A stretch of DNA of 64,000 nt from Paenibacillus urinalis (GTDB lineage Bacteria; Bacillota; Bacilli; Paenibacillales; Paenibacillaceae), in assembly GCF_028747985.1 (NCBI RefSeq), contig NZ_CP118108.1, positions 5,120,001 through 5,184,000 of the forward strand, in the 5' to 3' direction. Below are positions 4,502-25,001 of the stretch, in pieces. The notes beneath the pieces were generated by a model. That model was given only the letters and a program-made list of their open reading frames with translations. It was not told the DNA's origin and did no database searches. Each line of letters opens with the position of its first letter. Within the stretch, counting starts at the first letter, position 1. The position numbers and the translations under genes are program-made.

Positions 4502-4708
4502 GATGAATAATTCCTCCTTTAATGGGTTGGGTTGTTTAGGCGCTAAAATGCAAAAAGCACCTCACAAACCGACCATCTGTAAGCACACGAATACCGTGTG
4601 AATTTACATTGGTCACCTTGTGAGGTGCATTCTGCGTCAGAAAGCTTTCCTGCGCCTGCGGGAAAGAAGATAACAGGGAATAAAATAAGGTATGAAGTCA
4701 TTATATCA
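4502..4708 (-). promoter_or_regulatory. leader copy A: promoter, 5' hairpin, terminator-like hairpin
   Basis: Minus strand, in order: extended -10 TGATATAAT (4708-4700) and shared CATACCTTAT (4694-4685). Then a 5' hairpin CTTTCC/GGAAAG (4645-4666) with a loop holding AGGCGC, and a long hairpin with outer stem GCACCTCACAA/TTGTGAGGTGC (4557-4628). A T-run follows (4556-4552), then GCGCCTA (4543-4537), complementary to the first loop, then the ribosome-binding site of the gene starting at 4501. The layout resembles a transcription attenuator. The class is not recognised. Confidence 0.72.
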
Positions 4709-4723
4709 TACGATTAACAGTTT

Positions 4724-4767
4724 ACAAAAATAAAAACGGAGCTCCACATTAAAGAGGAACTCCGTTT
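4724..4767 (-). terminator. intrinsic terminator after the 4788-5180 gene
   Basis: AAACGGAGCTCC (4734-4745) pairs with GGAACTCCGTTT (4756-4767). Read on the minus strand it is followed by TTTATTTTT. It separates the ART-like gene pair from leader A. Confidence 0.8.
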
Positions 4768-4787
4768 CGTCGCTATTTAAGTCTGAC

Positions 4788-5180
4788 TCATTTTCGTTTA
4801 TTGGACCCAACCTTGATAACACCCATCCCGTCAGTATTTTTTGGAATGGTTCCCATTTTTACAATCCGGCGACCAGGGGCCGACCGTAAATGTACTCGTA
4901 CCGTCTTCATTTTCTTGGCCCGATCCCGCAGATGCCCGACATAAATTTGATTCGGATCTTGCGGATTATATTTTCGTTTCATTGACCGTTCAAATTCATC
5001 AACTAACGTTGCAAAATCGCTTACGTTTGGCTCAAGTCCAAACAAACGCTTCATGTCCCTGTAGTGACGAAAGAAAACTTCCTTCGCTTCATCACCAGGA
5101 TAACCAATCTTCTGAAGTTCATTAATGACGGCTCCTGCATAGTGTTTATTCATCACTCGCCGGCTTGTCATCTGGGTCAT
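4788..5180 (-). CDS. partner protein of the DUF3990 gene
   Basis: About 130 residues from ATG 5180 (GAGGAG 10 bases upstream); ATG 5153, which overlaps the upstream stop, is an alternative. The visible domain begins near NKHYAGAVINELQKIGYPGD and continues with a helix-rich part that includes VFFRHYRDMKRLFGL and a basic C-terminus. It overlaps the DUF3990 gene, so the two are translated together. DUF3990 proteins are often encoded beside a small helical partner, so this could be an antitoxin or immunity protein. That is inference from position; I do not recognise the family. Confidence 0.6.
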   Translation of the reverse strand: MTQMTSRRVMNKHYAGAVINELQKIGYPGDEAKEVFFRHYRDMKRLFGLEPNVSDFATLVDEFERSMKRKYNPQDPNQIYVGHLRDRAKKMKTVRVHLRSAPGRRIVKMGTIPKNTDGMGVIKVGSNKRK

Positions 5181-5865
5181 AAAATGTCCACTCCTCTCGA
5201 TTAAGAATTCCGGAAAAAAGCTCCACGTTAAACTTATAGTATCCTTCAACCGTTAGCATTTTATTCAAACGCTCATCGAAGAAGACAATTTGATCGCCAA
5301 GCTCGAGCCCGAATAACCTTTTTCCGTTCTCGTCTCGGGTGATCTGATCTGCAAACCAGAGGACATCCTCTGGAATATTTTTAGATCTTCCGGACATCTT
5401 AAATTCAAGTAGGACCGGTCCTGTATCATTGTCAGCCATTGAACCACAGACAATTTGTGGGTGAGGATGTCCGAAATCCTCTAAGCACGTACAATGATCT
5501 AAGGAACTCTCGAGGCGATGGGATAGGAGAAATTTAATCCAGTCCATTCCTTCTCCGCGAAAATCAAGAACCGATATATCGTCATTATAACGATTCGGAT
5601 GCAAACGAATTTTTACAACGGCAGGAATTTCATCCGTATTAATCTCTTCCCCACGTTTAATTTTTTTGGAGAGCTTATTAAAGTGCCACTTCATAGCCTG
5701 ATTGAGATCCAATGTAGTGTAGAAACCTGTACCGAAATCCCGGTCCCGGCTCTTTCTCAGAAATTGAAAATTAATGAGTTGCCGCTTTAAACTGGGTATA
5801 GCTCCCATTGTGGTGCCGTGATAAACCACGTCAGGGAGTCTTAATGAGGTAATGTAATTGGCCAT
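5146..5865 (-). CDS. DUF3990 protein, ADP-ribosyltransferase-like
   Basis: 239 residues from ATG 5865, with GGAGG 6 bases upstream. Features match DUF3990: VYHGTT near residue 15, DFGTGFYTT near 45-53 followed by ALNQAMKW-like sequence, and CGSMADN in the C-terminal half. DUF3990 is related to ADP-ribosyltransferases, where the HGT and GFYTT motifs shape the NAD+ pocket. Such proteins are commonly toxin-like members of accessory gene pairs. The gene lies beside the left end of the composite transposon, and its start region overlaps the 3' part of the small gene that the transposon broke. Activity is inferred, not shown. Confidence 0.7.
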   Translation of the reverse strand: MANYITSLRLPDVVYHGTTMGAIPSLKRQLINFQFLRKSRDRDFGTGFYTTLDLNQAMKWHFNKLSKKIKRGEEINTDEIPAVVKIRLHPNRYNDDISVLDFRGEGMDWIKFLLSHRLESSLDHCTCLEDFGHPHPQIVCGSMADNDTGPVLLEFKMSGRSKNIPEDVLWFADQITRDENGKRLFGLELGDQIVFFDERLNKMLTVEGYYKFNVELFSGILNREEWTFYDPDDKPASDE

Positions 5866-5926
5866 ATAATCCTCCACTGCTATTATAACATAATTGGAAC
5901 AATTCGTCCGTACGTAACCAACTGAC
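5831..5926 (-). pseudogene. 3' part of a small gene cut by the composite transposon
   Basis: Removing the composite transposon and one 9 bp target copy joins this stretch to 16166-16357 in one frame: ...ENAVSW | LRTDELFQLCYNSSGGLYG..., ending at TGA 5831-5833. It overlaps the first codons of the DUF3990 gene. It is only the C-terminal half of the broken gene. The reading is direct; function unknown. Confidence 0.6.
5918..5926. repeat. 9 bp target-site duplication, left copy
   Basis: CCAACTGAC here is repeated exactly at 16157-16165, the outer flank of the second ISLre2 copy. The inner flanks of the two IS copies (7518 onward and up to 14565) do not match each other or this sequence. So the whole IS-cargo-IS unit is bounded by the duplication. 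Confidence 0.88.
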
Positions 5927-7517
5927 GTCAGTGTCAAGCTAGCGTGGGCAGTCATTTAAGATGCCTGGAACGCGAACCCCGAAGGAACCTCTTCCTTGTA
6001 AGCGCTTTGCTTCGTTCTTTCATCAAATACAAGTGATTTGTCAGAATTTTTTGCCGTTATCCGCGAAGTGCTTTGAGTGCCATACCCGTTGTGCTGCTTT
6101 GCTTCGGTCCTTGCAGCATGCGAATCATTCCAGCGATACAACCCTTGACCGGTTGCGTCACGTTCTTTAGCAATTGCCGCATGTTTATCGGCTGCTGCGG
6201 CGTTGCCTGCTTACTCGCTTGTCCTTCAACCGTTCTTACCACCGTGCCCGCTTCTTGAATCCTCATCATCGTCCTCAGCATCGCCCTGACGCCTTGCTCA
6301 CTCCAACTGTACCCGCCACGCTTCGTCCGCCTGGCGAATATACGCATCTGCGATTCCGCGCTTCCCATCGGGCGCATGCCGCTTGTGTCGATCCCCTTCG
6401 CCTGGAGTGTTTTTCGGTAGTCGTCCAAATGCTTCTCGTGCCGCTTCAGAAAGCTTTTATACGGCTTCCAATCCTTCCGCTTCTCTTCCGCTATCTCTTG
6501 CTCCGACACGCCTTCCAAGGCCGCCATAAGCGCGGCTGCGTCCTGTTTGGCCAGCGACCGTCTCACGGTCTCCCATACCTTTGGCAAATGTCCGACAAAC
6601 CGTTTCAAATCACGCGCCACATGAAAGCGATCCAGCATATACAGGCATTGGTGGAAGTAGGATGTACATTCCCCGATCCACGCCGCGCCGTCTCCGTTCA
6701 CCACAAGCCACGTGTTCTCGTCGATTTCGTAACGCTCCACCAGAAAGTCCCCGAACCCTTCCCAGAAGTCGCCGCCGCTCGTATGCAGGTAATGCTGTTT
6801 ATTTTTCAGCTCCACCCGCTTGCCGTTCTTCTCCCAGCCTTCGTGTACGACCGCGATTGCGTTCTCCATCCCGCGCTTCTTGCTCCGCTGCAGCTTCGTG
6901 TATAGCCCATCCACTTCCACGAACAATACTCGCGCTGGGCGTCGCTTCACCTCAGACATCGGCTGTTCCGCACGCTCCATCAGTTTTTCCCTGATCGCTT
7001 GATGGCTTAGCACATTGTATCCCAGCAGCTGCTCCAGCCGCTTAGCGCTGTCCCGGTACGACGGTCCTTGGCTTGCGAATGCGATTGCTGTCTCCTCCAA
7101 ATGCGGACTGACTTTCCCGCGCCCTTCGAATTGCAACAGCTGATCCAGCAGATACACGTGTTTTCCGCTTCTACGATCACAATACAATCTCCGCTTGAAG
7201 CGCACGTTCCCGAACACCGTGTTGACGCTTGTTTCACGCTCGTCCTTTACTCGATAACGCTCTCGGTCCCGTTGCTCCAGGATCTGCTGATCCAGCGCCT
7301 CCAGCACCTGCTTCATCGCACGAGCGAATTCCTCCTGCATTTTCCGGAAAATCCATTGCTCAATCTCTTTCATCGTCGGCATTGTTGTGGTAAAGTGGCT
7401 CACAGGAGCTTCCTCCTTCTTGGTGTGTTGTGCGCAAACATCACTTTACCAAGGGAGAAGCTCTTTTTCTATATCCGCTTTTTCCAATTCCTACACCCAC
7501 GGAGATTTTACACTAAC
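5927..7517 (-). mobile_element. ISLre2-family IS, copy 1 (1591 bp)
   Basis: Comparison with copy 2 at 14566-16156 shows identical sequence beginning GTCAGTGTCAAG and ending CACTAAC. The ends form an imperfect ~22 bp inverted repeat sharing AGTGT and CGTGGG. Length and the 9 bp target duplication fit ISLre2. One transposase gene fills it. Confidence 0.9.
6057..7403 (-). CDS. ISLre2-family (UPF0236-type) transposase
   Basis: 448 residues, full length for the family. The N-terminus (MSHFTTTMPTMKEIEQWIFR) and the segments GNVRFKRRLYCD, VLFVEVDGLYTKLQRSKK, VNGDGAAWIGE and DRFHVARDLKRFVGHLPKVW match ISLre2 transposases. DG in VEVDGLY and GDGAAW are the likely acidic catalytic positions of the DDE-type core. 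The C-terminus RRTKRGGYSWSEQGVRAM is also typical. It is identical to the copy at 14696-16042, so duplication is recent and both are probably active. Confidence 0.92.
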   Translation of the reverse strand: MSHFTTTMPTMKEIEQWIFRKMQEEFARAMKQVLEALDQQILEQRDRERYRVKDERETSVNTVFGNVRFKRRLYCDRRSGKHVYLLDQLLQFEGRGKVSPHLEETAIAFASQGPSYRDSAKRLEQLLGYNVLSHQAIREKLMERAEQPMSEVKRRPARVLFVEVDGLYTKLQRSKKRGMENAIAVVHEGWEKNGKRVELKNKQHYLHTSGGDFWEGFGDFLVERYEIDENTWLVVNGDGAAWIGECTSYFHQCLYMLDRFHVARDLKRFVGHLPKVWETVRRSLAKQDAAALMAALEGVSEQEIAEEKRKDWKPYKSFLKRHEKHLDDYRKTLQAKGIDTSGMRPMGSAESQMRIFARRTKRGGYSWSEQGVRAMLRTMMRIQEAGTVVRTVEGQASKQATPQQPINMRQLLKNVTQPVKGCIAGMIRMLQGPKQSSTTGMALKALRG

Positions 7518-7524
7518 CCCTTGA

Positions 7525-8166
7525 TTAAGAAACCATCATCACCGTACGATCACAAATCGCATCAACGTCCTGGTGGTCGTGACTTACGAACAAACAGGTC
7601 ATCTCCGCTTTTCTCAGGATATCTCTAAGCTCGCTGCGGATAGAGACTTTAAGGTCTGTATCCAGGTTGCTGAACGGTTCATCCATCAGAAGAATGGAAG
7701 GACGCGGGGCAAGAGCCCTTGCCAAGGCTACACGCTGCTGCTGGCCCCCGCTTAATTCGTGGGGATAACGCTTCTCAAAGCCTGATAGCTGCACCAGCTC
7801 CAGCATTTCTGCAAGCCGCTCTGCACGTTCTTTCTTCGACAGACGATGCAGGCCAAATTCGATGTTGCCTGCTACGGTCATATGCGGAAACAATGCATAA
7901 TCCTGAAACACCATGCCGACGCCGCGCTTTTCAGGAGGTATGAAGGAGGTATCGTCCACCACGGTACGCCCGGAAATCGCAATGCTTCCGCCGGTTGGCG
8001 ACTCCAACCCGGCAACAAGCCGCAGCAGCGTACTTTTTCCACTCCCGCTAGGCCCCAAAATCCCGACGATCTCCCCTTTTTCCATATCGAAGGAGAAGCG
8101 GTCAATCACTGGCTTCTGTTTGGAGGAATAGGAAAATGAAAGTTTACCAATATTCACGATCTTCAT
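7525..8166 (-). CDS. iron(III) ABC transporter ATP-binding subunit, short form
   Basis: 213 residues. Walker [10 protein letters not shown] (about 38-46), Q-loop [13 protein letters not shown], signature LSGGQQQR, Walker B ILLMDEP and the switch histidine VSHD are all present. It belongs with FbpC-type importers, which usually reach ~340 residues with a C-terminal TOBE-like part. Here the frame ends in VMMVS and a stop 8 bases from the IS edge, so the regulatory tail was probably cut off by the insertion; a naturally short subunit is possible. The start overlaps the permease stop (ATGA). It would power ferric iron uptake. Confidence 0.85.
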
Positions 8167-9815
8167 GAATTCAACCTCTTCCCTAATTGATGAAATACGA
8201 TAACAGAGACCATACTGACACCGATAATAAACAAAGAGGGTATGGAAGCTTCATAGATGCGTTCGTCGCTTGCGTATTGATAGGTCTTGGTCGCCAGCGT
8301 TTCAAAGTTAAACGGTCTAAGCAGCAAGGCTAACGGTAATTCTTTCATAATTTCCACGAACGTTAGAATAACGCCGCTGAACAAGGCGCCCTTGATCAGC
8401 GGGGCATCCACCTTGAAAAAGGTCTTCGTCATCCCCAGGCCGAGCAGCCTTGAGGCTTCCGTATATTTCATCCCGATCTTCTCAAAACCGGCCTCGACCG
8501 CATTGTATCCGGTGGCCATAAAGCGGACCACATAAGCGACAACCAGCATAACCAAGGACATGCTGAGCACAAGCGGCGCTTTCCCCAGGCCCATGCGGGC
8601 ATATAGCGGGGCCAGCCATTGATCAAGGCCGATAAACAGCGCCAGTACGCCGATGGCAATAATCGCTCCGGGAACGGAATAGCCGGACGTCACCGACCGG
8701 GCCAGCACATAGGTCAGCACATTCGATTGCTGACGAACTACATTGGCTGTAATCACCGAGAACACCATAATGATCGCCGTGGCCGTCAAAGCAAGGCCTA
8801 TCGTGTTATACGTCAATTCGAAAAAAGCCGGGGTAAGCACATCGTCATAGCTCCAGGCGGCCCATACGATCAATTGAATGACAGGGATAAGGAAGGAGCA
8901 CGCAAACATAAGCCCACAGAACATGAAAGCAGCCGCAGCGCGGATACCTTTCAGCTTCTTGGGTGTAAGCGGTCTTGATTTACTGGTGGAAGCCGCGAAG
9001 CTCCGCTGACGGCGGAGCAGCCGTTCCACCACGAATATCCCGACGACCCCCGCCATCAGCCATGCGGCCAAACGGACGGCAGAGTCGACATCGTACATTC
9101 CGAACCAGGTCTGAAATATCGCCACGGAGATGGTCTGGATACCGTAATAGCTCGATACGCCATAATCGCTAAGCACTTCGAATACGACAAGTATGACACC
9201 GCCGACGATGGCAGGCCGGGAAATCGGCAGCACGATAAAGAGAAATATGGAAAAAGGTTTTCTCCCGAGCAGGGCGGCATTCTCAATATAAGAGCCGCTC
9301 TGATGCTCCAGATAGGATCTGGTAATCATGTATACGTATGGAAACAAGAACATCGTAAATATGAAAATGGCGCCTCTCATCGACATGATGCCAAACCACT
9401 CCGGGTTTGGCATCACCCCGAATTCATTGCGCAGCGTGGTTTGGACAATGCCGGTATAGCTCAACATCGTGCTGTAGGTGTATGCCGCAATGTACGGAGG
9501 AACGGCCAGCGGCAGCACAAGCGCCCAGCGAAAAAAGCGTCTGAGCGGAAAATCATAAGCCGCGATCAGCCAAGCCAACGTTACCCCGAGCAGCACGGTA
9601 AACAGACAAGTAAACAACACAAGCCAAACGGTCTGGAACACATAGTCCTGCAGTAAATACTGCTTGATGTGCTGCCAGTTTTCGTTTGGCGGTTGGAACA
9701 GCGACACGAATATAGTAAAAATGGGCAGCAGAACGACCACTGCCCCCAGAAGGCTGGCATAAAGCCAGCCGTTTGTATGTTGTTTTATATTGCGTATAGC
9801 TGCTCTAAAGCGCAT
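8163..9815 (-). CDS. iron(III) ABC transporter permease, two-domain FbpB type
   Basis: 550 residues with about twelve hydrophobic segments in two homologous halves, as in FbpB/SfuB permeases. Each half ends with an EAA-type cytoplasmic loop (ENAALLGRKPFSIFLFIVLP and EASRLLGLGMTKTFFKVDAP) that contacts the ATPase. A TTG at 9827 is in frame; ATG 9815 is preferred and leaves 2 bases after the binding-protein stop. It is the membrane channel of the importer and part of a three-gene operon ordered binding protein, permease, ATPase. Confidence 0.9.
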   Translation of the reverse strand: MRFRAAIRNIKQHTNGWLYASLLGAVVVLLPIFTIFVSLFQPPNENWQHIKQYLLQDYVFQTVWLVLFTCLFTVLLGVTLAWLIAAYDFPLRRFFRWALVLPLAVPPYIAAYTYSTMLSYTGIVQTTLRNEFGVMPNPEWFGIMSMRGAIFIFTMFLFPYVYMITRSYLEHQSGSYIENAALLGRKPFSIFLFIVLPISRPAIVGGVILVVFEVLSDYGVSSYYGIQTISVAIFQTWFGMYDVDSAVRLAAWLMAGVVGIFVVERLLRRQRSFAASTSKSRPLTPKKLKGIRAAAAFMFCGLMFACSFLIPVIQLIVWAAWSYDDVLTPAFFELTYNTIGLALTATAIIMVFSVITANVVRQQSNVLTYVLARSVTSGYSVPGAIIAIGVLALFIGLDQWLAPLYARMGLGKAPLVLSMSLVMLVVAYVVRFMATGYNAVEAGFEKIGMKYTEASRLLGLGMTKTFFKVDAPLIKGALFSGVILTFVEIMKELPLALLLRPFNFETLATKTYQYASDERIYEASIPSLFIIGVSMVSVIVFHQLGKRLNS

Positions 9816-9817
9816 TT

Positions 9818-10924
9818 TTATTTCCAACCTACTTTATTAGAAATCTCAACAGCCTTTTTATTATGTTCTCCCAGCTTGGCAAAGTCAATTTGCTGGGCCT
9901 TAAACTCTCCCCAAGATTTCAGAAGCTCCGGTTTCTCCGCCTTGGGGTTTACCGGGAATTCAAAGTTCTCCTTGGACATCAGTGCCTGCGCTTCCGTATC
10001 GGTCAAGAACTCGATCAGCTTCACGGCATTTTCTTTATTTTTGCTGTGCTTTGCAAGACCCACTCCACTGATATTCAGGTGCGTGCCGGTCGTGCTTTGG
10101 TTAGGGAAGAACACGCCGAGCTGCTGTGCAACCTTCACTTCTTCCGCATCTTTGGAGTTCAGCATCTGTCCAAAGTAATAAGTGTTCATAATGGCTACAT
10201 CTCCGGTTCCCGCAGCAATGGCTTTTGCTTGGTCACGGTCCCCGCCTTCCGGCGCACGGCCGAGGTTAGCGACGATGCCTTTAGCCCACTCTTCCGCTTT
10301 CTGCTCCCCGTTCAACTCGATCAGGGAAGCAAGCAGCGATTGGTTATACAAGCTTGTGGAGGAACGCACGAGCACTTTTCCTTTCCACTTATCGGTAGCC
10401 AAATCTTCGTATGTAGAGAGCTGCTCCGGTTTAACCCGATCTTTGGAGTATACGATCACACGGGCCCGCGTCGACAGACCGATCCACTCGTTGTCTTTAT
10501 CCCGGAGCTGTGCAGGAACATTAGCCTCAATGACATCCGACTTTACAGGCTGCAGCACTCCGTTCAGCTTGGCGTTATTCAGCACTCCGCCGTCCACTGT
10601 GATGAACAAATCGGCGGAAGTGCTCTCTCCCTCACGCTTTAACCGTTCAATCAATTCTTCCGCCTTGCCTTTGACGACATTGACTTTAATACCGGTTTTC
10701 TCCGTAAATTGAGCATAAAGAACGTCGTCCACTTCATAATGTCTTGCCGTATAAAGATTGACGACTTGTTCCGTCTTCGATTCGGAAGCTCCGCTATTCG
10801 GCTCTTGCGGCTGCGCAGCTTGCTGTCCGCCTTGTGATGCCGTTCCGCATCCTGCCAAAAGCCCGACGCTCAGAATAGCCGCTATTGCGGATGATAAGAA
10901 TCTCCGGTGTTTCTTCAACATCAT
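9818..10924 (-). CDS. iron(III) ABC transporter substrate-binding lipoprotein
   Basis: About 368 residues. A lipoprotein signal (LSVGLLAGC) sets the mature N-terminal Cys, followed by a Gln/Ser/Glu linker. The fold matches FbpA/FutA: VNLYTARHYEVDD, DLFITVDGGVLNNA, GLSTRARVIVYSKDRV, GDVAIMNTYYFGQML. The Tyr pair in NTYYFG fits the iron-binding tyrosines of the family. ATG 10924 and 10921 are adjacent and either could be used after GGGGAG. A perfect Fur box lies just upstream, so iron starvation should induce the operon. Confidence 0.92.
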   Translation of the reverse strand: MMLKKHRRFLSSAIAAILSVGLLAGCGTASQGGQQAAQPQEPNSGASESKTEQVVNLYTARHYEVDDVLYAQFTEKTGIKVNVVKGKAEELIERLKREGESTSADLFITVDGGVLNNAKLNGVLQPVKSDVIEANVPAQLRDKDNEWIGLSTRARVIVYSKDRVKPEQLSTYEDLATDKWKGKVLVRSSTSLYNQSLLASLIELNGEQKAEEWAKGIVANLGRAPEGGDRDQAKAIAAGTGDVAIMNTYYFGQMLNSKDAEEVKVAQQLGVFFPNQSTTGTHLNISGVGLAKHSKNKENAVKLIEFLTDTEAQALMSKENFEFPVNPKAEKPELLKSWGEFKAQQIDFAKLGEHNKKAVEISNKVGWK

Positions 10925-10950
10925 TACACTCCCCTTTTTAAAGTTGGTAC

Positions 10951-10965
10951 TGATAATCATTATCA
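10951..10965. promoter_or_regulatory. Fur box
   Basis: TGATAATCATTATCA is an exact 7-1-7 inverted repeat (TGATAAT-N-ATTATCA), the Bacillus-type Fur operator. It lies about 27 bases upstream of the iron-binding lipoprotein start. Confidence 0.92.
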
Positions 10966-11075
10966 TTTGTTTGCAACTTGGATTCTAGCAAGAATAAACC
11001 CTACTGTCAACCCATTATTTTATAGTCACCGCAAACGGTTCCATCAAAAGCAGATTTCGGTATGAATACAAAATA

Positions 11076-11099: not shown

Positions 11100-11108
11100 A
11101 CGGATGAA

Positions 11109-14565: not shown

Positions 14566-16156
14566 GTCAGTGTCAAGCTAGCGTGGGCAGTCATTTAAGA
14601 TGCCTGGAACGCGAACCCCGAAGGAACCTCTTCCTTGTAAGCGCTTTGCTTCGTTCTTTCATCAAATACAAGTGATTTGTCAGAATTTTTTGCCGTTATC
14701 CGCGAAGTGCTTTGAGTGCCATACCCGTTGTGCTGCTTTGCTTCGGTCCTTGCAGCATGCGAATCATTCCAGCGATACAACCCTTGACCGGTTGCGTCAC
14801 GTTCTTTAGCAATTGCCGCATGTTTATCGGCTGCTGCGGCGTTGCCTGCTTACTCGCTTGTCCTTCAACCGTTCTTACCACCGTGCCCGCTTCTTGAATC
14901 CTCATCATCGTCCTCAGCATCGCCCTGACGCCTTGCTCACTCCAACTGTACCCGCCACGCTTCGTCCGCCTGGCGAATATACGCATCTGCGATTCCGCGC
15001 TTCCCATCGGGCGCATGCCGCTTGTGTCGATCCCCTTCGCCTGGAGTGTTTTTCGGTAGTCGTCCAAATGCTTCTCGTGCCGCTTCAGAAAGCTTTTATA
15101 CGGCTTCCAATCCTTCCGCTTCTCTTCCGCTATCTCTTGCTCCGACACGCCTTCCAAGGCCGCCATAAGCGCGGCTGCGTCCTGTTTGGCCAGCGACCGT
15201 CTCACGGTCTCCCATACCTTTGGCAAATGTCCGACAAACCGTTTCAAATCACGCGCCACATGAAAGCGATCCAGCATATACAGGCATTGGTGGAAGTAGG
15301 ATGTACATTCCCCGATCCACGCCGCGCCGTCTCCGTTCACCACAAGCCACGTGTTCTCGTCGATTTCGTAACGCTCCACCAGAAAGTCCCCGAACCCTTC
15401 CCAGAAGTCGCCGCCGCTCGTATGCAGGTAATGCTGTTTATTTTTCAGCTCCACCCGCTTGCCGTTCTTCTCCCAGCCTTCGTGTACGACCGCGATTGCG
15501 TTCTCCATCCCGCGCTTCTTGCTCCGCTGCAGCTTCGTGTATAGCCCATCCACTTCCACGAACAATACTCGCGCTGGGCGTCGCTTCACCTCAGACATCG
15601 GCTGTTCCGCACGCTCCATCAGTTTTTCCCTGATCGCTTGATGGCTTAGCACATTGTATCCCAGCAGCTGCTCCAGCCGCTTAGCGCTGTCCCGGTACGA
15701 CGGTCCTTGGCTTGCGAATGCGATTGCTGTCTCCTCCAAATGCGGACTGACTTTCCCGCGCCCTTCGAATTGCAACAGCTGATCCAGCAGATACACGTGT
15801 TTTCCGCTTCTACGATCACAATACAATCTCCGCTTGAAGCGCACGTTCCCGAACACCGTGTTGACGCTTGTTTCACGCTCGTCCTTTACTCGATAACGCT
15901 CTCGGTCCCGTTGCTCCAGGATCTGCTGATCCAGCGCCTCCAGCACCTGCTTCATCGCACGAGCGAATTCCTCCTGCATTTTCCGGAAAATCCATTGCTC
16001 AATCTCTTTCATCGTCGGCATTGTTGTGGTAAAGTGGCTCACAGGAGCTTCCTCCTTCTTGGTGTGTTGTGCGCAAACATCACTTTACCAAGGGAGAAGC
16101 TCTTTTTCTATATCCGCTTTTTCCAATTCCTACACCCACGGAGATTTTACACTAAC
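14566..16156 (-). mobile_element. ISLre2-family IS, copy 2 (1591 bp)
   Basis: Same length, orientation and ends as copy 1 (GTCAGTGTCAAG ... CACTAAC). Its right flank CCAACTGAC is the second copy of the composite's target duplication. Its left flank shows no matching duplication. Confidence 0.9.
14696..16042 (-). CDS. ISLre2-family (UPF0236-type) transposase
   Basis: 448 residues, identical in protein sequence to the transposase at 6057-7403 and intact from ATG to stop. The same motifs apply (VEVDGLYTK, VNGDGAAWIGE, DRFHVARDLKR). Two identical intact copies give the composite everything needed to move as a unit. Confidence 0.92.
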   Translation of the reverse strand: MSHFTTTMPTMKEIEQWIFRKMQEEFARAMKQVLEALDQQILEQRDRERYRVKDERETSVNTVFGNVRFKRRLYCDRRSGKHVYLLDQLLQFEGRGKVSPHLEETAIAFASQGPSYRDSAKRLEQLLGYNVLSHQAIREKLMERAEQPMSEVKRRPARVLFVEVDGLYTKLQRSKKRGMENAIAVVHEGWEKNGKRVELKNKQHYLHTSGGDFWEGFGDFLVERYEIDENTWLVVNGDGAAWIGECTSYFHQCLYMLDRFHVARDLKRFVGHLPKVWETVRRSLAKQDAAALMAALEGVSEQEIAEEKRKDWKPYKSFLKRHEKHLDDYRKTLQAKGIDTSGMRPMGSAESQMRIFARRTKRGGYSWSEQGVRAMLRTMMRIQEAGTVVRTVEGQASKQATPQQPINMRQLLKNVTQPVKGCIAGMIRMLQGPKQSSTTGMALKALRG

Positions 16157-16165
16157 CCAACTGAC
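16157..16165. repeat. 9 bp target-site duplication, right copy
   Basis: CCAACTGAC, exact match to 5918-5926, directly abutting the outer end of IS copy 2. Confidence 0.88.
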
Positions 16166-17874: not shown

Positions 17875-18080
17875 CTTGTTTTTGCTCCTTTCAAAGAATT
17901 GGTTTTGGGTTGTAGGCGCAGAAAAAAGCACCTGGCAAAATCCCAAAGAAAAAGACACACGTATCGTGTGTATTTAGCCTTGGTCACCTTGCCAGGTGCT
18001 TGTTTCATAGAATGCTTTCTCGCGCCTGCGGGAAAGAAGGAAAGTTGTCAAACAATATAAGGTATGAGCTTATTATAGCA
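17875..18080 (-). promoter_or_regulatory. leader copy B: promoter, 5' hairpin, terminator-like hairpin
   Basis: Extended -10 TGCTATAAT (18080-18072) and CATACCTTAT (18066-18057). Then a 5' hairpin CTTTC/GAAAG (18015-18036) with AGGCGC in the loop. Long hairpin outer stem GCACCTGGCAA/TTGCCAGGTGC (17928-17999), inner CACACG/CGTGTG. Six T's follow (17927-17922), then GCGCCTA (17919-17913), then the AAAGGAG site of the gene at 17874. Compared with copy A, the outer stem changes TCAC/GTGA to TGGC/GCCA and stays paired. Confidence 0.75.
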
Positions 18081-18658: not shown

Positions 18659-18695
18659 GAACGATTTCCTCGCTTTCGATAATGTTGAGCCGGAT

Positions 18696-18884: not shown

Positions 18885-18899
18885 GGTTAGCCCTGCCTT

Positions 18900-19286: not shown

Positions 19287-19309
19287 ACATCCACTCTCCT
19301 AATCGGCTT

Positions 19310-19352
19310 TTTTATTGAAAAACAAAGAGGCGGGAATGATGCAGCCCGCCTC
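19310..19352 (-). terminator. intrinsic terminator after the transglutaminase-like gene
   Basis: GAGGCGGG (19327-19334) pairs with CCCGCCTC (19345-19352). The minus strand continues TTTGTTTTTC. Confidence 0.85.
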
Positions 19353-19361
19353 CATGCTGAT

Positions 19362-19733
19362 TCAAACAACTTCTTCACAAGATTCAGCCGGTTCCTCGTA
19401 AACAAGGAATGACGGCTTTTCTCCGACAATAACTCGCTGAAGCGGGCCTTCCAAGAACGGTTCGAACTGGGTCAGTGTGACATCGATATAGAGGCCCCCT
19501 ACTTCGACCCAGGTATGCTCGTCATAATCCCGATTCGAACAGCTCGATGCATCATCGTAGATAATCCATCCTTCCACAATTCGATGGCCGATTCCCTGTT
19601 TCGTCAGCTTCTTCGAAATGAGTTCGGATGCCTCCACGCACTTCCCCTGCAGGTCAGAGTATTCACTGCCGTATTTGGCCTCGAGCAGCGTCCTCACCTC
19701 TTCGGCAATTGCTCGCAGCTGTTGAACCATCAT
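19362..19733 (-). CDS. transglutaminase/papain-like fold protein
   Basis: 123 residues from ATG 19733, which overlaps the upstream stop as ATGA and has GGGGGA 8 bases upstream. A Cys-His-Asp order typical of transglutaminase-like or papain-like folds is visible: GKCVEASELI (Cys near 32), DEHTWVEVGG (His near 75) and YIDVTLTQF (Asp near 83). This suggests a small cysteine peptidase or amide-bond enzyme. Activity and target are unknown. Coupled to the truncated gene just upstream. Confidence 0.6.
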   Translation of the reverse strand: MMVQQLRAIAEEVRTLLEAKYGSEYSDLQGKCVEASELISKKLTKQGIGHRIVEGWIIYDDASSCSNRDYDEHTWVEVGGLYIDVTLTQFEPFLEGPLQRVIVGEKPSFLVYEEPAESCEEVV

Positions 19734-20017
19734 TCGGATTTCCCCCAATCAATCTTGGAGGCGGGATTCTCCTCAGCAAGTGACCGCTCCTTTTGGTACG
19801 CCTCATCCTGGCTCGGAATAATCGAGATGGTCAGCGTATCATCCTTGAGCCGGCCTTCGTCCTCGAAATACTTCAGGAGATCGTCGAGTTTAACGTCCTG
19901 ATCAAAGAAGATGAAGGTAGAAGCTCCATTGGAGCTTTGCTCTTCTTCGAACACTCCGTCCGGGTTTGCGTAAATCTCCAGGTAGAAGCCGGCATCGATG
20001 ATGAACTCGCTTCGTCG
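19730..20017 (-). pseudogene. unknown gene, 5' end lost at the ISL3 insertion
   Basis: The frame is open from 20017 (after a TAG at 20018-20020) to TGA 19730: SEFIIDAGFYLEIYANPDGV, then FEEEQSSNG, VKLDDLLKYFEDEGRLKDD, ASKIDWGKSE. No ATG start is present; a GTG at 19954 would give 74 residues but cuts off clearly coding sequence upstream. The likely cause is the transposase element beginning just to the right. Function unknown. Confidence 0.55.
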
Positions 20018-20098
20018 CTATACTTTGTGGCTTAAAGTCTGAATTATAGAAAAATAGTCAATACTGCTCAGTATTACGTTAATAGGAGCGGATTGGCG

Positions 20099-21349
20099 AT
20101 GTGGACCTCGTTAAGCAGTGCTGAAAACGTGATTATGGATATGTTCAAAGTGGCTTTGCGATTGGAAAAACCATGGGAGCTCACACATATAGAGTTTGAT
20201 GATCAGGATCAAGCCTGGCACTTGCACCTGGATTTTGAGCGGGGGGCAATCTTTGCATGTCCAGAGTGTGGTGCCGAGTGTAAAGCTTACGACAGCGCCA
20301 TCAAACACTGGCGCCACTTGGACTTCTGGGATTGGAAAACCTTCATGCACGCAAGAATGCCGCGAGTAAAATGCACCTCCTGTAATAAGGTTACGCAGGT
20401 GTATGCGAAGTGGGCCCGGCCTCTTTCGCACTTCACCCTGTTATTCGAAGCTTGGGCAATGCGTCTGATGGCTGAAATGCCGGTTAATGCGGCAGCACGT
20501 GAACTTCGGGAGCACGACACCCGGATGTGGAGAATCTTTCACCACTATGTGGATAGTGCCATGTCGGAACTCGATCTCTCAAACGTGAAGCGTATCGCGA
20601 TTGATGAGACCTCCTCCAAGCGAGGCCATCGTTACATCACCTTATTCGTAGACGTAGATCGCAAGATTGTCCTGTTCGCTACAGAAGGTAAGGGCAAGGA
20701 TACGTTGGACCGATTTCAACGCCACCTTACGGAAAAGGGCCTTACTGCAGACGCGATTCAAGAGGTGTGTTGCGACATGTCGCCCGCTTACATTAGCGGC
20801 ATTCAGGAGTATTTCCCGAAAGCAGAGGTCACCTTTGATAAGTTTCATGTCATGAAGCTGGTCGGCGAAGCCGTCGATGAGGTGCGTATCCAAGAACAAA
20901 AAGAGCGGCCGGAGCTGAAGAAAACCAAGTACATCTGGCTGAAAAACGAAGTGAATCTGAAGGCGGAGCAAAAGGAAATGCTGTACCGCCTGAAGGATAC
21001 CAACCTGTTAACCGGACGTGCCTACCGGTTAAAGCTGGCATTACAGGAGTTTTGGTCAACGCCCCACATATTTGCGGATGTGTTCCTCCGGGAGTGGATT
21101 GGCTGGGCAACCCGTTCCCAGCTTCAACCGATGATGAGTCTGGCCAAAACCATAAAGCAGCATGAAGAAGGAATCCTCCGCTGGTTTCACAGCAAGATGA
21201 CGAATGGGTTGCTGGAAGGCATCAACGGACTGGTTCAAGCAGCGAAACGGCGAGCAAGAGGCTACCGCAATGTTGAAAACCTAATCGCCATGGTCTACAT
21301 GACTGCGAACAAGCTTCGTCTGCCAGTGCTCGCGGCGCGACGAGCATAG
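20099..21349 (+). CDS. ISL3-family transposase
   Basis: 416 residues from ATG 20099 (AGGAGCGG upstream; TTG 20093 also possible). The N-terminus has a zinc finger (CPECGAECKAYD ... CTSCNKV) and a helix-turn-helix region. The DDE core shows IAIDETSSKRGHRYITLFVD, CCDMSPAYISGIQEYFP and the late Glu in SKMTNGLLEGINGLVQAAKR. These are standard ISL3 features and the gene is full length. Confidence 0.93.
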   Translation: MWTSLSSAENVIMDMFKVALRLEKPWELTHIEFDDQDQAWHLHLDFERGAIFACPECGAECKAYDSAIKHWRHLDFWDWKTFMHARMPRVKCTSCNKVTQVYAKWARPLSHFTLLFEAWAMRLMAEMPVNAAARELREHDTRMWRIFHHYVDSAMSELDLSNVKRIAIDETSSKRGHRYITLFVDVDRKIVLFATEGKGKDTLDRFQRHLTEKGLTADAIQEVCCDMSPAYISGIQEYFPKAEVTFDKFHVMKLVGEAVDEVRIQEQKERPELKKTKYIWLKNEVNLKAEQKEMLYRLKDTNLLTGRAYRLKLALQEFWSTPHIFADVFLREWIGWATRSQLQPMMSLAKTIKQHEEGILRWFHSKMTNGLLEGINGLVQAAKRRARGYRNVENLIAMVYMTANKLRLPVLAARRA

Positions 21350-21356
21350 TATTCCT

Positions 21357-21450
21357 TTCCGCCTTCCCACCCCGCTTCAGATGTGGAAACAGCGGTCAAG
21401 CGATCTCCTTGACGGCTGTTTCCACATCTGAAAATCTCTTAAAGGCGGAA
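21357..21450. repeat. large nested hairpin beside the ISL3 transposase
   Basis: Inner arms 21378-21400 and 21408-21430 are complementary at 22 of 23 positions (CAGATGTGGAAACAGC / GCTGTTTCCACATCTG) with a 7-base loop. Outer arms TTCCGCCTT (21357-21365) and AAGGCGGAA (21442-21450) also pair. No T-run follows on either strand, so it is not a standard terminator. Confidence 0.75.
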
Positions 21451-21454
21451 GGGG

Positions 21455-22759
21455 TTATGAAACTAACATTTTGCACGGTACCCACCCAGTAGAGCGAAGA
21501 GCCATGAACTCTTGTCTCGGATGAGAATAGAAGATCGCTTCCACTTCGGATTGCTGGCGGTCTTTCTCGTAGAAGCTCGATAGCCGCAAAGGTTTGCTCG
21601 CGGCGGGGACACTCAGGTACTCCAGAATTGAGGCATGCTGCGGACCCATATTCCGGTCTTCCGGGTCAAGGGAGTTGTACTCCTCGGCAGCCAGCACCTT
21701 AATGATTTCCTCGTCTGCCCCTGCCGGCACATCCATGGTTACCGTCCGAGTAAAGGAGACAACAACGGTTTTTTCCTCCGAGAAATTCTGTACCGGAGCG
21801 GGTTGAATAACCTTTTGCTCCTCATCCTTAATCCCGAAGTAATCGTTCACAATCCCCTTCACTCGCTTAAGAATGTTGCGAGTGACATAAAGTTGGGATT
21901 CCAGACGTTCTTTTCTCAGATTGTCCAGTTGGTCCGTGCTCTCGGCCTGCTCCCACTGGATTTCAAGGCCTTCGATATCAGTTTGCAGGTCATCCCGAAG
22001 CTGACAAACGCGCAAGAACACCTTCTCCTTGCACCGGTCTTCAAATTGCTGGGTCAGATCATTGTAATACGCCGTCGCTTCATTCTCGTCCGTGAAAAGA
22101 CGGGAGTGCAGCTGAACATAGATGGTAAACTCGCTCTTCAGCCGCATATCCAGGTAAGGCTCTCCCTCCCCTTCTATGAGGCCGGAGTCCGAGGAACATT
22201 CCTGACAAAAATCCTCCTCGCTCTTGTAATAGCCGCGCTGAAGGAGGTATTCAAACAAGAAGTTCTCGGTTGCATCAGAGAGAGCCATGCGCAGGGAGGA
22301 TACGAGATCATTACGTTCTTCTTCGGAAAGCGAGTTATCCTCCAGCAGGGTAAATGCTTCCGGCACCGTCTTAACATCCTTCAGGCGCTCGGAAAGATTT
22401 TGCTCCGACATCCGATCCAAAAAGAGATTTTGGATTTCATCGAGGTGCGTTTTCACATCGCGCAGCTTCGCTTGAGATGCTGCATCCATTTCATGAGATT
22501 GGAGCACAACCAGCATTTCTTTCTTGGTTCTCGGCATTTTGATATTGAGAGCCAAGAAAAGTGCTTTGGTTACTTTCCCACACCAGTTTGTCGTTGCAAG
22601 TTTCTGCTCCGGACATTCGGCATAACCTTTCAGCCAGTTGCCAAGAATACGCTCCGTTTCCTTAAAGTCCGATTCGGTTTTTACTTCTTGAGGAAACAGC
22701 GTTTGGTACGCCTTTGTTAATTCCTCAGCTGTTACGGTTTTCAATTTGAGCCCAGTCAT
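21455..22759 (-). CDS. unknown protein downstream of leader C
   Basis: 434 residues from ATG 22759 with AAGGAG 8 bases upstream; a GTG at 22768 lies too close to that site. The first ~300 residues look helical and charged (EELTKAYQTLFPQEVKTESD, AKLRDVKTHLDEIQNLFLDR). The C-terminus is more beta-like (TVVVSFTRTVTMDVPAGADE, EYNSLDPEDRNMGPQHASIL). One CQECSSDSG segment. No family recognised. It is the largest unknown protein of the element, and the strongest leader copy drives it. Confidence 0.6.
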   Translation of the reverse strand: MTGLKLKTVTAEELTKAYQTLFPQEVKTESDFKETERILGNWLKGYAECPEQKLATTNWCGKVTKALFLALNIKMPRTKKEMLVVLQSHEMDAASQAKLRDVKTHLDEIQNLFLDRMSEQNLSERLKDVKTVPEAFTLLEDNSLSEEERNDLVSSLRMALSDATENFLFEYLLQRGYYKSEEDFCQECSSDSGLIEGEGEPYLDMRLKSEFTIYVQLHSRLFTDENEATAYYNDLTQQFEDRCKEKVFLRVCQLRDDLQTDIEGLEIQWEQAESTDQLDNLRKERLESQLYVTRNILKRVKGIVNDYFGIKDEEQKVIQPAPVQNFSEEKTVVVSFTRTVTMDVPAGADEEIIKVLAAEEYNSLDPEDRNMGPQHASILEYLSVPAASKPLRLSSFYEKDRQQSEVEAIFYSHPRQEFMALRSTGWVPCKMLVS

Positions 22760-22954
22760 TGAACACACTCCTTAAATGGAATTGGGTTGTAGGCGCAAAA
22801 AAATGCACCTCTCAAACCGACCAATGAGCACACGGGGATCGTGCGAAATAATCATTGATCATCTTGAGAGATGCATTTTTGCTTTAGAAAGCTTTCCTGC
22901 GCCTGCCGGAAAGTAAAAGTGAGAAATGGAATAAGGTATGCCTACATTGTATCA
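22760..22954 (-). promoter_or_regulatory. leader copy C: promoter, 5' hairpin, terminator-like hairpin
   Basis: Extended -10 TGATACAAT (22954-22946), CATACCTTAT (22940-22931), 5' hairpin CTTTCC/GGAAAG (22892-22913) with AGGCGC loop. Long hairpin outer stem GCATCTCTCAA/TTGAGAGGTGC (22805-22874, one G-U), inner GATCAATGA/TCATTGGTC and CACG/CGTG. Seven T's follow (22803-22797), then GCGCCTA (22796-22790), then the AAGGAG of the 22759 gene. The region from here to 23160 on the plus strand holds only the next gene's upstream region. Confidence 0.75.
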
Positions 22955-23160
22955 CGATTGCCTCTGAGAGGGAATACAAGTGAAAAGCCGCCTCCCAAAC
23001 AGTTCATATTTCTGTTCAAAAAAGTATTCAGTTAATTATTCATTTCGTTGACGAACCAATTAACCTCCTTCGAAAATTGCTGGCTATTTCCCTGCAGTGT
23101 AGAGTTAGGGTATCCTGCGCAGGAAACACAAACCGTCAACATTCAATTAGGAGGTTCAGC

Positions 23161-24150
23161 ATGAAAAAAGGATTTATCAGTTCCATTATGGCATTCGTAT
23201 TAATGATTTACGGTTTTACCTTCTCTTCGGTCGCGAGCGCGGCAGCAACATCCGAGTTTATTATGAAACCCGGGGAAACGTATGAATTCGTCCTCGTTAA
23301 AGCTGACCTTCCGACGTATCAGGTCCAGTTTTCTCAGCAGCCGATTAGACTCGGCAATCAAATCGATATCTTGGAGTTGGACCGCGACAACGAAACAATC
23401 CGGGAGATGAAAGGGTTCACCGGAAACGCGAGCTTCAACGTATATGCAGAAGGCAGAACTTTGGTTACAAATACCGGGATCAGCGATTACAAACTCAGTT
23501 TCGACCCGAATTATATTGCCGGCCAAAAAGTGGGCAAAGAGTTCGTGCCTGTCGAGCAAACGGGTAAGGTAACGATTCAGCCGGGTGAAACCTTCAAAGC
23601 AGCATATACCGCCAGTGAAGCGAGACCGGGTATTGATGTAGCCGTAGATAATCCGAACGGAAACAGTGTTACTTACTCGGTTTACGCCAATGGTGAGGGT
23701 ACAAGCGGAAGCGGGGATGGGTATTTCGCGGTTAACGTGCCGTACCAAGGATCTGCAGAGTTTACCAACGAAGGCACAACTGAAGTCGTGTTGAACTATT
23801 TCACCCATTGGGTCACGGTATCCAAACTCCAGGACACCGTTCCACTTACTCCGGTAAAGAGCATCTACAATATACTCGCTGTAGAGCCCGGTCAGACGAT
23901 CAAGGTCACTGATGTGAACACGATTTCTTCGACCTTCACGATCGAACCCAATGGGGGTAAATTCACCATCGCCACCTACTCTTCTGACGGGCAAGAACTG
24001 ACTGCTCCAACGGAGTATGCGCCTAGTTACAAATACACTTCAAGCGTCACTGGGTATGGAGACTACGCAATCGTTACGAACACGAGCACGGAAGGACAAA
24101 GCCTTTATGTTCAAGGAAGGTACAGCAATTATAAACTTGAACGACAATAA
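23161..24150 (+). CDS. secreted protein with three PGET/PGQT repeats
   Basis: 329 residues from ATG 23161 (AGGAGG upstream). A signal peptide ends at about SSVASAAA. The mature part has three similar beta-rich repeats, each opening with a Pro-Gly motif: MKPGETYEFVLVKADLPTYQ, IQPGETFKAAYTASEARPGI and VEPGQTIKVTDVNTISSTF. No enzyme motif or cell-wall anchor is visible. It is the only plus-strand cargo gene of the element besides the IS. Probably a secreted or surface beta-sandwich protein. Confidence 0.7.
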   Translation: MKKGFISSIMAFVLMIYGFTFSSVASAAATSEFIMKPGETYEFVLVKADLPTYQVQFSQQPIRLGNQIDILELDRDNETIREMKGFTGNASFNVYAEGRTLVTNTGISDYKLSFDPNYIAGQKVGKEFVPVEQTGKVTIQPGETFKAAYTASEARPGIDVAVDNPNGNSVTYSVYANGEGTSGSGDGYFAVNVPYQGSAEFTNEGTTEVVLNYFTHWVTVSKLQDTVPLTPVKSIYNILAVEPGQTIKVTDVNTISSTFTIEPNGGKFTIATYSSDGQELTAPTEYAPSYKYTSSVTGYGDYAIVTNTSTEGQSLYVQGRYSNYKLERQ

Positions 24151-24226
24151 GGATAACCCTGGGGGAGACCAGTACGGTCTCTCTCTTTATTTTGTATCCT
24201 TCTCCACGCGAGAAAGCATGAATAAA

Positions 24227-24279
24227 GATAAGGTGACTTAAAGTGACCAAAAGGTCACCCAAAAGTCACCTTATCTAAA
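24227..24279. terminator. bidirectional terminator with nested hairpin
   Basis: GATAAGGTGACTT (24227-24239) pairs with AAGTCACCTTATC (24263-24275), and TGACC/GGTCA pair inside. It lies between the convergent secreted-protein gene and the 24311-24802 gene. Confidence 0.8.
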
Positions 24280-24310
24280 AACGCCTGCCATTATGAGGGT
24301 TCTTGGTTAC

Positions 24311-24802
24311 TCAACGTGCGATCCCGATCACTTGGTCGAGTGCCTCCAGCTGCTTTTGATAGGGCTGGGCAAGTCGCTTCAGTTCGTTCTCATATCCTTC
24401 GGCAAGACGGAAAAGCTCGATATTCGGTTCGTTAAACCGGTGGCTCAACTTGCGCATTTCTGTGGCACTGAGCAGCTTATGCATTTGATTGATCGTAAGG
24501 TGAATCGAGCCACCTTCAGGAGAGAATGCCATAATCTCCTCAAGCTCGCAAAGCATCTCGTCGAATTCGCGGATGTCGTCCAAGGCTTCCATTACATCAA
24601 TGTCTTGCCTATCGGAAGCCTCGTCAAACGCATCGCTGATCACTTCGTGCCAAAAAGAAAGTTCCTCGGTCGCCATCTTAAGCTCGATGGTCGTATCATG
24701 ATCCTCTCGAACAGCATTAGCCTGGATTATGAGCCGTTCTTGATAATCTTTCTTCACTTGGGAGCGGGACTTCCGAATCTGTTGGGGCTTATTTCTTCTC
24801 AT
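24311..24802 (-). CDS. unknown helical protein downstream of leader D
   Basis: 163 residues from ATG 24802 with GGAG 8 bases upstream. A basic N-terminus (MRRNKPQQIRKSRSQVKKDY) leads into a long helical, Glu-rich body (ALDDIREFDEMLCELEEIM, RLAEGYENELKRLAQPYQKQ), suggesting coiled coil. It might bind nucleic acid through the basic end. No family recognised. Fourth gene of the element preceded by the shared leader type. Confidence 0.55.
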   Translation of the reverse strand: MRRNKPQQIRKSRSQVKKDYQERLIIQANAVREDHDTTIELKMATEELSFWHEVISDAFDEASDRQDIDVMEALDDIREFDEMLCELEEIMAFSPEGGSIHLTINQMHKLLSATEMRKLSHRFNEPNIELFRLAEGYENELKRLAQPYQKQLEALDQVIGIAR

Positions 24803-25001
24803 CAAAACATCTCCTTTGGGTTAGATTCTTTATAGAGCGTGGCGTAGAAATCAAAAAAAGCATCCATTCGAAGAATCCAACAGGGCACACCAAGGGTGCC
24901 TGTCAACGTTCTTCAAAAAAGATGCTTTAGAATGCCCACCAGCGTCGGCCGGCGAGTAAAGGTTTCGTTCGGGTACTTCATCAAGGTATGCTTTTATGAT
25001 A
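24803..25001 (-). promoter_or_regulatory. leader copy D: divergent member of the leader family
   Basis: -10 TATCAT (25001-24996), CATACCTT (24990-24983), then a long hairpin GCATC..GAAGAA / TTCTTC..GATGC (24860-24925) with an inner GGCAC/GTGCC hairpin. Seven T's follow (24859-24853), then the ribosome-binding site of the 24802 gene. The AGGCGC loop and its GCGCCT partner are not clearly kept; a CTACGCC sits at the equivalent place. It keeps the layout with a largely different sequence. Confidence 0.6.

Follow-up and report, generated by a model that had tools for sequence, protein, structure and literature searches.

Four attenuator-like leaders of Paenibacillus urinalis belong to a structured leader family repeated on putative conjugative megaplasmids

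Introduction

A stretch of 64,000 nucleotides (nt) of Paenibacillus urinalis (positions 5,120,001 to 5,184,000 of contig NZ_CP118108.1, referred to here as the window) contains four minus-strand genes, each preceded by a long leader (copies A to D). The initial annotation, which was made from the sequence alone, interpreted these leaders as a regulon controlled by transcription attenuation, located in one mobile element and belonging to no recognised class. This raises the question of what the leaders are, how far their family extends, and what they may do for the replicons that carry them. The analysis presented here indicates that they are members of a family of repeated leaders which probably serve attenuation or antitermination throughout a replicon, with a small hairpin, P1, and an adjoining box (CATTCTAA) as the recognition site.

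Results

Organization of the four leaders

Rereading of the sequence confirmed the four minus-strand leaders and their common layout (Table 1). In each of them a −10 hexamer is followed by CATACCTT at the presumed transcript start, a spacer, P1, a box of the form CWTTCTRW, a terminator hairpin with a T-run, the ribosome-binding site (RBS) and the start codon; in copies A–C the −10 has the extended form TGnTAnAAT. The window contains six occurrences of CATACCTT against 1.49 expected from shuffled sequences (2 of 100 shuffles reach six); four are those of the leaders, and the other two lie inside two identical copies of an insertion sequence (IS). The changes of the outer stem among copies A–C (TCAC/GTGA, TGGC/GCCA and CTCTC/GAGAG) are exactly as originally reported. 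The earlier description was accurate for the −10 box, CATACCTT, hairpin, T-run and RBS, and it overlooked the internal structure of P1, a second hairpin (a:b) that competes with the terminator, and a segment (d) behind the T-run. Copy D is divergent, as shown by its score of 108 bits (153–158 bits for copies A–C) with a covariance model, R1, whose seed included all four, and no clear motif could be read after its terminator. As to a conserved leader peptide, which ribosome-mediated attenuation would require, no common start codon was recognised after the Shine-Dalgarno-like AAGGTGA in the few copies read by eye.

Distribution of the leader family

A pattern search in relatives yielded one true copy outside the window (L046), which was combined with the four window copies to build R1. 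Among 75 genomes of the same genus, R1 gave ten matches on a single contig of 223,240 bases (contig C5 of genome G059); a second genome had one weak match. The nine further copies that R1 found on C5 constitute the independent step of the search. A separate pattern scan also matched NZ_FPAC01000006.1 of Paenibacillus sp. 453mf.

A second model built from 14 copies (R2) was positive in seven of 295 genomes of the family, in two of them (G354 and G088) weakly, with one weak partial match each. In closer scans with R2, in which at most 150 candidates were scored per genome, all 33 matches in G379 were located on its 518,225-base contig C2 (four were opposite-strand shadows) and all 19 in G059 on C5 (three were opposite-strand shadows of palindromic stems), as were 6 of 6 in G348 on C15 and 4 of 4 in G053 on C35. 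A third model (R3), limited to the first 75 positions and trained on most of the C5 and C2 copies that it later finds, detected 26 modules on the 223-kb C5 (Paenibacillus sp. 453mf), 24 of which are on the plus strand, and 42 modules in the 338 kb examined of the 518-kb C2. R3 matched eight of 392 genomes of the order and none of 398 genomes of the class, the latter search being uninformative according to the tool's own note. Lone P1-like modules were observed in other genera of the order (L181 of G140, L186 of G269 and L180 of G475); on reading, no a:b/terminator switch stands directly behind them.

Of seven named records of plasmids and phages, only two Lysinibacillus plasmids were matched by R3, and these weakly (five and one matches, with E values up to 0.05), in agreement with R2 (best E value 1.3e-6). 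Reading of these copies revealed the same layout, i.e. a promoter, P1 with a ACCAUGCGGU-like apex, a:b and a terminator.

These results support the initial interpretation: the models retrieve many homologues, and none of 4227 Rfam models matched the window at gathering score. Below that threshold, no match fell on any window leader (window positions 1–30000), and around nine other loci the best match reached 33 bits (cut-off 60) beside a leader, while two weaker ones overlapped leader ends. Bacillus-plasmid carries the Rfam number RF01691 (PMC2864571). The element was absent from the literature found, as judged from titles and the openings of abstracts among the matches listed, with subscription journals and preprints mostly outside the search.

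Mutually exclusive pairings in the leader

Segment a, the 5′ arm of the terminator, pairs with the distant segment c, and the same a also pairs with the adjacent segment b. These pairings were examined in a set of copies derived from 120 model matches, of which 86 were kept; the 34 dropped by eye were opposite-strand shadows of palindromic terminators or weak or decayed matches. R3 later recovered at least four of these 34 (L065 19115, L129 18422, L130 1071 and L131 14973). Seven of the 86 were without a terminator by rule (six broken T-runs and one weak stem) and three were removed by hand, leaving 76 tested copies; copy A is outside this set because its T-run is broken. The pairing of each copy's segment with its own partner was compared with that obtained when partners were swapped among copies (20,000 permutations). 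Shuffle-based numbers, here and below, are inflated by kinship among the copies.

An a:b hairpin of at least 4 bp, with a loop of 3–8 nt, occurs in 74 of the 76 copies versus 37.7 in shuffles. Its variants include CACCU/AGGUG, CAUCU/AGAUG, CACUU/AAGUG, CACUC/GAGUG and ACGCU/AGCGU, and own partners were clearly superior to swapped ones (z −8.6, 0 of 20,000 permutations; z −4.1 on 26 dissimilar copies). A similar result was obtained for c and segment d, which lies just after the T-run (z −8.7, 0 of 20,000; z −4.4 on the 26 dissimilar copies). The control pairings, of c with the stretch after d and of a with d, were null. Since a:b competes for the 5′ arm of the terminator and covaries over the 76 copies, every leader has the appearance of a switch with two states; a terminator accompanied by a mutually exclusive hairpin is what the proposal of transcription attenuation would lead one to expect. 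For truncated transcripts of copy A, the predicted fold contains a:b as long as c is still missing.

Other combinations gave little. The 5′ box and the CATTCTAA box had no pairing signal with a, b or d in the swap test, and that of the CATTCTAA box with c was weak (z −1.8). A pseudoknot joining the P1 loop to the GCGCC behind the terminator seemed plausible for copies A–C but was set aside as weak: the outer pair of the loop is a covarying upper stem, and in this pairing of the P1 loop with d own partners gave only z −2.2 (70 of 5,000 permutations).

Conserved promoter and P1 module

Of 85 copies, 58 have TG directly before the −10, and 47 have the A of YATA as the seventh base behind it; the best −35 match is barely above that in shuffled sequences. 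P1 (approx. 22 nt) has few invariant positions and consists of a lower stem, a short upper stem and a small loop with a near-invariant G, the apex being mostly C-A-N-G-N-G. Its pairs were examined in an alignment of 64 copies, for which 74 of the 86 modules were offered; ten were left out, nine of them from divergent replicons, and the covariation in this alignment is therefore favoured toward clean. In the lower stem all five tested pairs vary on both sides, with 87% of cells paired; the upper pair (G-C in 52 copies, U-A in 8, C-G in 4) is never broken, while the neighbouring C-G pair gives no proof because it never varies. When P1 and the outer terminator stem were considered together in 14 copies, 12 of 17 pairs changed on both sides and 95.2% of cells paired, with a covariation score of 0.544 (0.220 in shuffled and 0.10–0.16 in slid controls), which strongly supports the covariation of outer stems claimed initially.

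G-U pairs far outnumber A-C pairs both in the terminator (51 versus 7) and in P1 (13 versus 2), which indicates that the mRNA-sense strand is the folding strand. The distance from P1 to the switch is variable (median 15 nt, up to 132 nt, and above 40 nt in 11 of 76 copies), and in several cases one P1 module was read before two tandem terminators (C5 79098, 130814 and 87839; L133 12985).

Carrier replicons and the genes behind the leaders

The leader-rich contigs are probably conjugative megaplasmids. Among the proteins encoded on C5 are a coupling protein of the VirD4/TraG type, a topoisomerase-FtsK fusion, and a methylase-helicase with relatives on Bacillus and Lysinibacillus plasmids of 65–251 kb; 115 open reading frames (ORFs) of C5 have relatives on the examined part of C2. 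ORFs of at least 100 amino acids (aa) contain none of the 26 C5 modules, compared with 1,429 of 2,000 random sites. For 24 of the modules an ORF starts on the same strand within 500 nt, compared with 917 of 2,000 random sites (46%).

Two replication genes recur behind leaders on different replicons. A primase-type gene stands behind leaders of C5 (39682, gene 39901), C2 (L143 6867, gene 7094) and the L. sphaericus plasmid NZ_CP014644.1 (L198 14284, gene 14472), and behind an R2 match of the L. irui plasmid NZ_CP113528.1 (L199 13361, gene 13531). A gene for a 5′-3′ exonuclease is found behind leaders of C5 (44682, with one small ORF between), C2 (L127 16565), L. sphaericus (L198 32800, gene 32949) and L. 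irui (L199 28366, with one small gene between). Both proteins of C5 share 32–37% identity with those of the Lysinibacillus plasmids, and it is because the same genes stand behind them that the weak Lysinibacillus matches are convincing as homologues. Further genes behind leaders include two for cytosine methyltransferases, one with a very weak match to DnaN (clamp) and, on C2, one for an N6/N4 methyltransferase; most of the scanned genes had no family.

A 177-aa protein (C5 134910-135443; relatives at L134, L151, L154 and G348:C15) is present on five leader-bearing contigs with 46–61% identity. Pfam assigns no family to the three relatives that were scanned, and by eye the protein looks GNAT-like; it was dropped as a candidate regulator. 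Very long proteins with S-layer-homology are encoded on C5 (113401-119496) and on the Lysinibacillus plasmid L198 (36218-40675).

The island in the window

The part of the window that bears the leaders is, judged by its gene order, a decayed remnant of a conjugation-type replicon, since it is colinear with the 518-kb contig yet broken by transposons. Segments of its minus strand from 25,025 down to 4,375 correspond to 6.6 kb of C2 (locus L139, 5713-12294), in the order D-C-B-A and with 68–82% identity. Two identical IS copies of 1,593 bases (5927-7519 and 14566-16158), which enclose 7 kb of other genes, interrupt the island, as does an ISL3 transposase gene. The location in one mobile element, as first proposed, is only partly right and applies to the decayed replicon piece; the region of 5.9–16.2 kb is a separate IS-flanked insert, whose genes we take for host genes. 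The genes behind the leaders are themselves partly decayed, those of A and C matching their homologues over a short stretch only and that of B being frame-split (Table 1). Homologues of gene D stand behind a D-type leader on C5 (29% identity) and C2 (67%).

Table 1. Positions of the leaders, their parts and the genes behind them in the window.
Feature	Position	Strand	Remarks
Copy A leader	4705-4513	minus	
Copy A extended −10 (TGATATAAT)	4700..4705	minus	
Copy A CATACCTT	4694-4687	minus	its A is the presumed start
Copy A P1, putative recognition hairpin	4645..4666	minus	
Copy A single-stranded box, conserved	4637..4644	minus	consensus CATTCTAA
Copy A segment a	4617..4628	minus	5′ arm common to terminator and competing hairpin a:b
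Copy A segment b	4611..4619	minus	antiterminator-type partner of a
Copy A segment c	4557..4568	minus	terminator 3′ arm, then T-run
Copy A segment d (GCGCCTA) and CAACCCAA	4527..4544	minus	
Gene behind A	4304..4501	minus	matches its counterpart behind the homologous C2 leader over 43 residues; remainder unmatched
Copy B leader	18077-17884	minus	
Copy B extended −10	18072..18077	minus	CATACCTT at 18066-18059
Copy B P1	18015..18036	minus	
Copy B segment a	17988..17999	minus	then b at 17990-17982
Copy B segment c and T-run	17922..17939	minus	
Copy B segment d and CAACCCAA	17905..17920	minus	
Gene behind B, 195 aa	17287..17874	minus	split over two frames (continues 17374-17069); C2 homologue 293 aa
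Copy C leader	22951-22767	minus	
Copy C extended −10	22946..22951	minus	CATACCTT at 22940-22933
Copy C P1	22892..22913	minus	
Copy C segment a	22863..22874	minus	begins GCATCT
Copy C segment b (AAGATGATC)	22865-22857	minus	changed jointly with a
Copy C segment c and T-run	22797..22816	minus	
Copy C segment d and CAACCCAA	22782..22797	minus	
Gene behind C, 434 aa	21455..22759	minus	without Pfam family; only first approx. 52 aa match C2
Copy D leader	25001-24811	minus	
Copy D −10 (TATCAT)	24996..25001	minus	without TG; CATACCTT at 24990-24983
Copy D P1, diverged	24935..24956	minus	
Copy D terminator hairpin	24860..24925	minus	short a:b (TCTTT/GAAGA); T-run 24859-24853; d not clear
Gene behind D, 163 aa	24311..24802	minus	without Pfam family

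Several other features of the window were recorded. The 1,593-base copies carry a UPF0236 gene and bracket genes for an ABC transporter, a polysaccharide deacetylase and a sigma-factor-like protein, in the manner of a composite transposon. Between leaders C and D there is a plus-strand ORF of 357 aa (23077-24150) without a Pfam family, for which the colinear stretch of C2 has no room. Behind gene D, on the minus strand, a strong inverted repeat (GTGACC/GGTCAC) with a T-run (24300-24230) was read as what is likely to be an ordinary terminator.

Other repeats and rejected matches

Matches to the pattern GTCGCCTGAAAGCTTTCT were rejected as leaders, as they belong to another repeat. A multi-copy, structured-looking repeat of approx. 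200 nt, with the core GTCGCCTGAAAGCTTTCTG..AGAAAGCTACATCGGAAGCATACGC, occurs in genomes of the same genus (L031-L037, L038, L041, L043, L044, L049 and L050), seven copies being present in G030. L098, from a genome scan, and L099, from a pattern search of viral contigs, are not leaders on reading. Among the patterns applied to viral contigs, one gave no matches and another 22 stretches, none with an R3 match.

Discussion

A model for the action of the leaders

At the level of sequence, the leaders combine the features of an attenuator with an intrinsic terminator (a promoter, a terminator ahead of the gene, and a second hairpin that excludes the terminator); they follow one promoter–leader–gene order, are repeated, are concentrated on one contig in the richest genomes, and have a conserved P1 and the alternative pairings a:b and a:c on the RNA strand. 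From this we infer an OFF default, P1 as the site of action and a replicon-borne factor.

According to this model, each copy would be the leader of an mRNA starting at its own predicted extended −10 promoter. The first approx. 65 nt, comprising a fixed 5′ end (AUACCUU), P1 and the single-stranded box CAUUCUAA, would act as a recognition module. Segment a could pair either with b, in a small early hairpin acting as antiterminator, or with the distant c, in the terminator stem followed by a U-run; a:b would form first, and a:c would have to displace it before the polymerase leaves the T-run. By default a:c would prevail and transcription of copies A–C would stop approx. 140 nt from the start. 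A replicon-borne factor, or a modified RNA polymerase, may engage P1 and the box, and a polymerase so engaged would pass before a:c displaces a:b, so that the operon is expressed. The pairing c:d might hold c after read-through, although this is a guess. The prevalence of a:c in the equilibrium fold suggests that a leader is OFF unless a:b is favoured or the polymerase is sped up. P1 and the box are the natural candidates for such an effect, and several of their properties argue for a factor or a modification of the polymerase and not for a simple switch of folds: both are conserved and close to the 5′ end, have no more than chance complementarity to a or b, lie at a variable distance from the switch and stand in places before tandem terminators. 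The same leader stands before dozens of operons of one replicon, and one signal would then set the expression programme of the whole replicon.

Several observations weigh against this proposal. The promoter, the stop and the read-through are predictions. Full-length leaders always fold in favour of a:c, and antitermination would need help; for copies B and C, folding predicts a:b at some transcript lengths only. The strong result for a:c in the swap test (z −20.7) is partly circular, the site having been chosen by that very pairing. The c:d pairing is not universal (a helix of at least 6 in 46 of the 76 own pairs versus 35.5% of swapped ones), and is not evident in the D lineage; a motif, CAACCC, follows d in 24 of the 76 copies (1 and 0 in two control windows). 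An RBS-like motif with an ORF of 35 aa within 334 nt follows all 26 C5 modules, yet also 1,179 of 2,000 random sites. The concentration on one contig is not general, as G280 has three R2 matches on two contigs and G269 single R3 matches on three. Nor did candidate factors emerge: the leader contigs of five genomes encode no NusG paralogue, for which reason antitermination of the LoaP/RfaH type was rejected, the second NusG-like genes of G348 and G280 being on other contigs; and those of four genomes encode no ANTAR protein, G348 having none at all.

Alternative explanations

The most serious competitor dispenses with a signal. In HK022 put and EAR, an RNA near the transcript start makes the polymerase ignore terminators, and we know of no a:b competitor in either of them. 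P1 and the box could likewise act directly on RNA polymerase, in a filter that always lets polymerases from the leader's own promoter pass and stops spurious upstream transcription at the terminator. The fixed 5′ end, the position of P1 near the start, its variable distance from the terminator and the tandem terminators would all suit such a device, and filters of this kind exist on conjugative plasmids, an example being EGeRS1-B of pLS20, which keeps transcription from an upstream promoter from reading through (PMC8708921). However, upstream transcription would also produce P1, unless a free 5′ end is required, and the dedicated a:b competitor found in nearly all tested copies is unneeded in a pure filter; we regard this RNA-only filter as rather unlikely. 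A choice between a:b and a:c made by a small molecule, temperature, or an antisense or small RNA is appreciably less probable. A sensor module followed by an antiterminator and a terminator is indeed the architecture of a transcriptional riboswitch, but P1 is short, with few invariant positions and no Rfam match at gathering score, and the identified genes (DNA methyltransferases, primase-type, 5′-3′ exonuclease and the weak clamp match) suggest no common metabolite.

The leaders could also be plain terminators with constant low read-through, in which a:b is a by-product of self-complementary arms. Regulation by the leaders is, after all, a prediction so far; nevertheless, b follows its own a and not that of other copies, and P1 and the box are conserved though a terminator needs neither, which makes this improbable. 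Hardly to be expected is a single-stranded DNA element for conjugation (a single-stranded DNA promoter or replication start), for which the conjugation-type replicons and the orientation of most copies on one strand (24 of 26 on C5) might speak: the excess of G-U over A-C pairs and the T-run behind the hairpin speak against it, and the −10 lies upstream of P1, which places the promoter outside the folded hairpin.

Relation to known systems

Attenuation or antitermination through P1 can be compared with several described systems, of which EGeRS1 and conAn are the nearest in setting and logic. EGeRS1 is a repeated structured sequence located just upstream of the RBS and operons on the conjugative Bacillus plasmids pLS20 and pBS72 (PMC8708921). 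Like the leaders it is repeated, structured and placed before an RBS and operons, and it stops upstream read-through; unlike them it is 420–751 bp long and GC-rich, with five copies on pLS20 (PMC8708921). No constitutive promoter was found in the copy tested (PMC8708921). The leaders have a predicted −10, preceded by TG in 58 of 85 copies. A relationship in sequence and structure to the EGeRS1-bearing pBS72 was not supported: R3 gave no match in the whole record at an E value of 0.05, and R2, run on 42.7 kb, gave one with an E value of 1.7. The conAn system of pLS20-type conjugation operons is a promoter-proximal RNA of conjugative plasmids that lets polymerase pass terminators, as is proposed for the leaders. 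By its description, it consists of a single RNA (conAn2) and a single protein at the head of a long operon (PMC8955417), whereas here a small module stands before dozens of operons, each of which has its own switch. HK022 put and EAR are named in the same paper (PMC8955417); the leaders differ from them in having no Rfam match at gathering score.

Leaders controlled by ANTAR proteins also have small hairpins upstream of, and alternative to, the terminator (PMC3369931). Their targets consist of two hairpins with 3-bp stems and hexaloops bearing A1 and G4 (PMC3369931), whereas the present leaders have one P1 of another make-up and an a:b loop of varying size. An ANTAR target was rejected on these grounds, since the P1 apex and the a:b loops lack the ANTAR features, and on that of the protein, which is missing from the leader contigs of the four genomes searched.

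Significance

To our knowledge, attenuator families are as a rule represented by a single leader, or by a few, in each genome. The structured leader described here, which has no Rfam match, is present in 26 copies on one conjugation-type contig and in 42 copies in the examined part of another, and its family extends to Lysinibacillus plasmids, where it precedes the same replication genes. We tentatively raise the possibility, as one that may well not hold, of a plasmid-encoded general antitermination system, in which one module (AUACCUU, P1 and CAUUCUAA) would load a plasmid factor on RNA polymerase at many operons, and the kinetic a:b/a:c gate of each operon would pass loaded polymerase only. 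If this is true, the megaplasmid would hold a private licence for its own transcription. The leader would offer an easily scored handle on how very large plasmids silence many operons and then activate them together, perhaps on entering a new cell.

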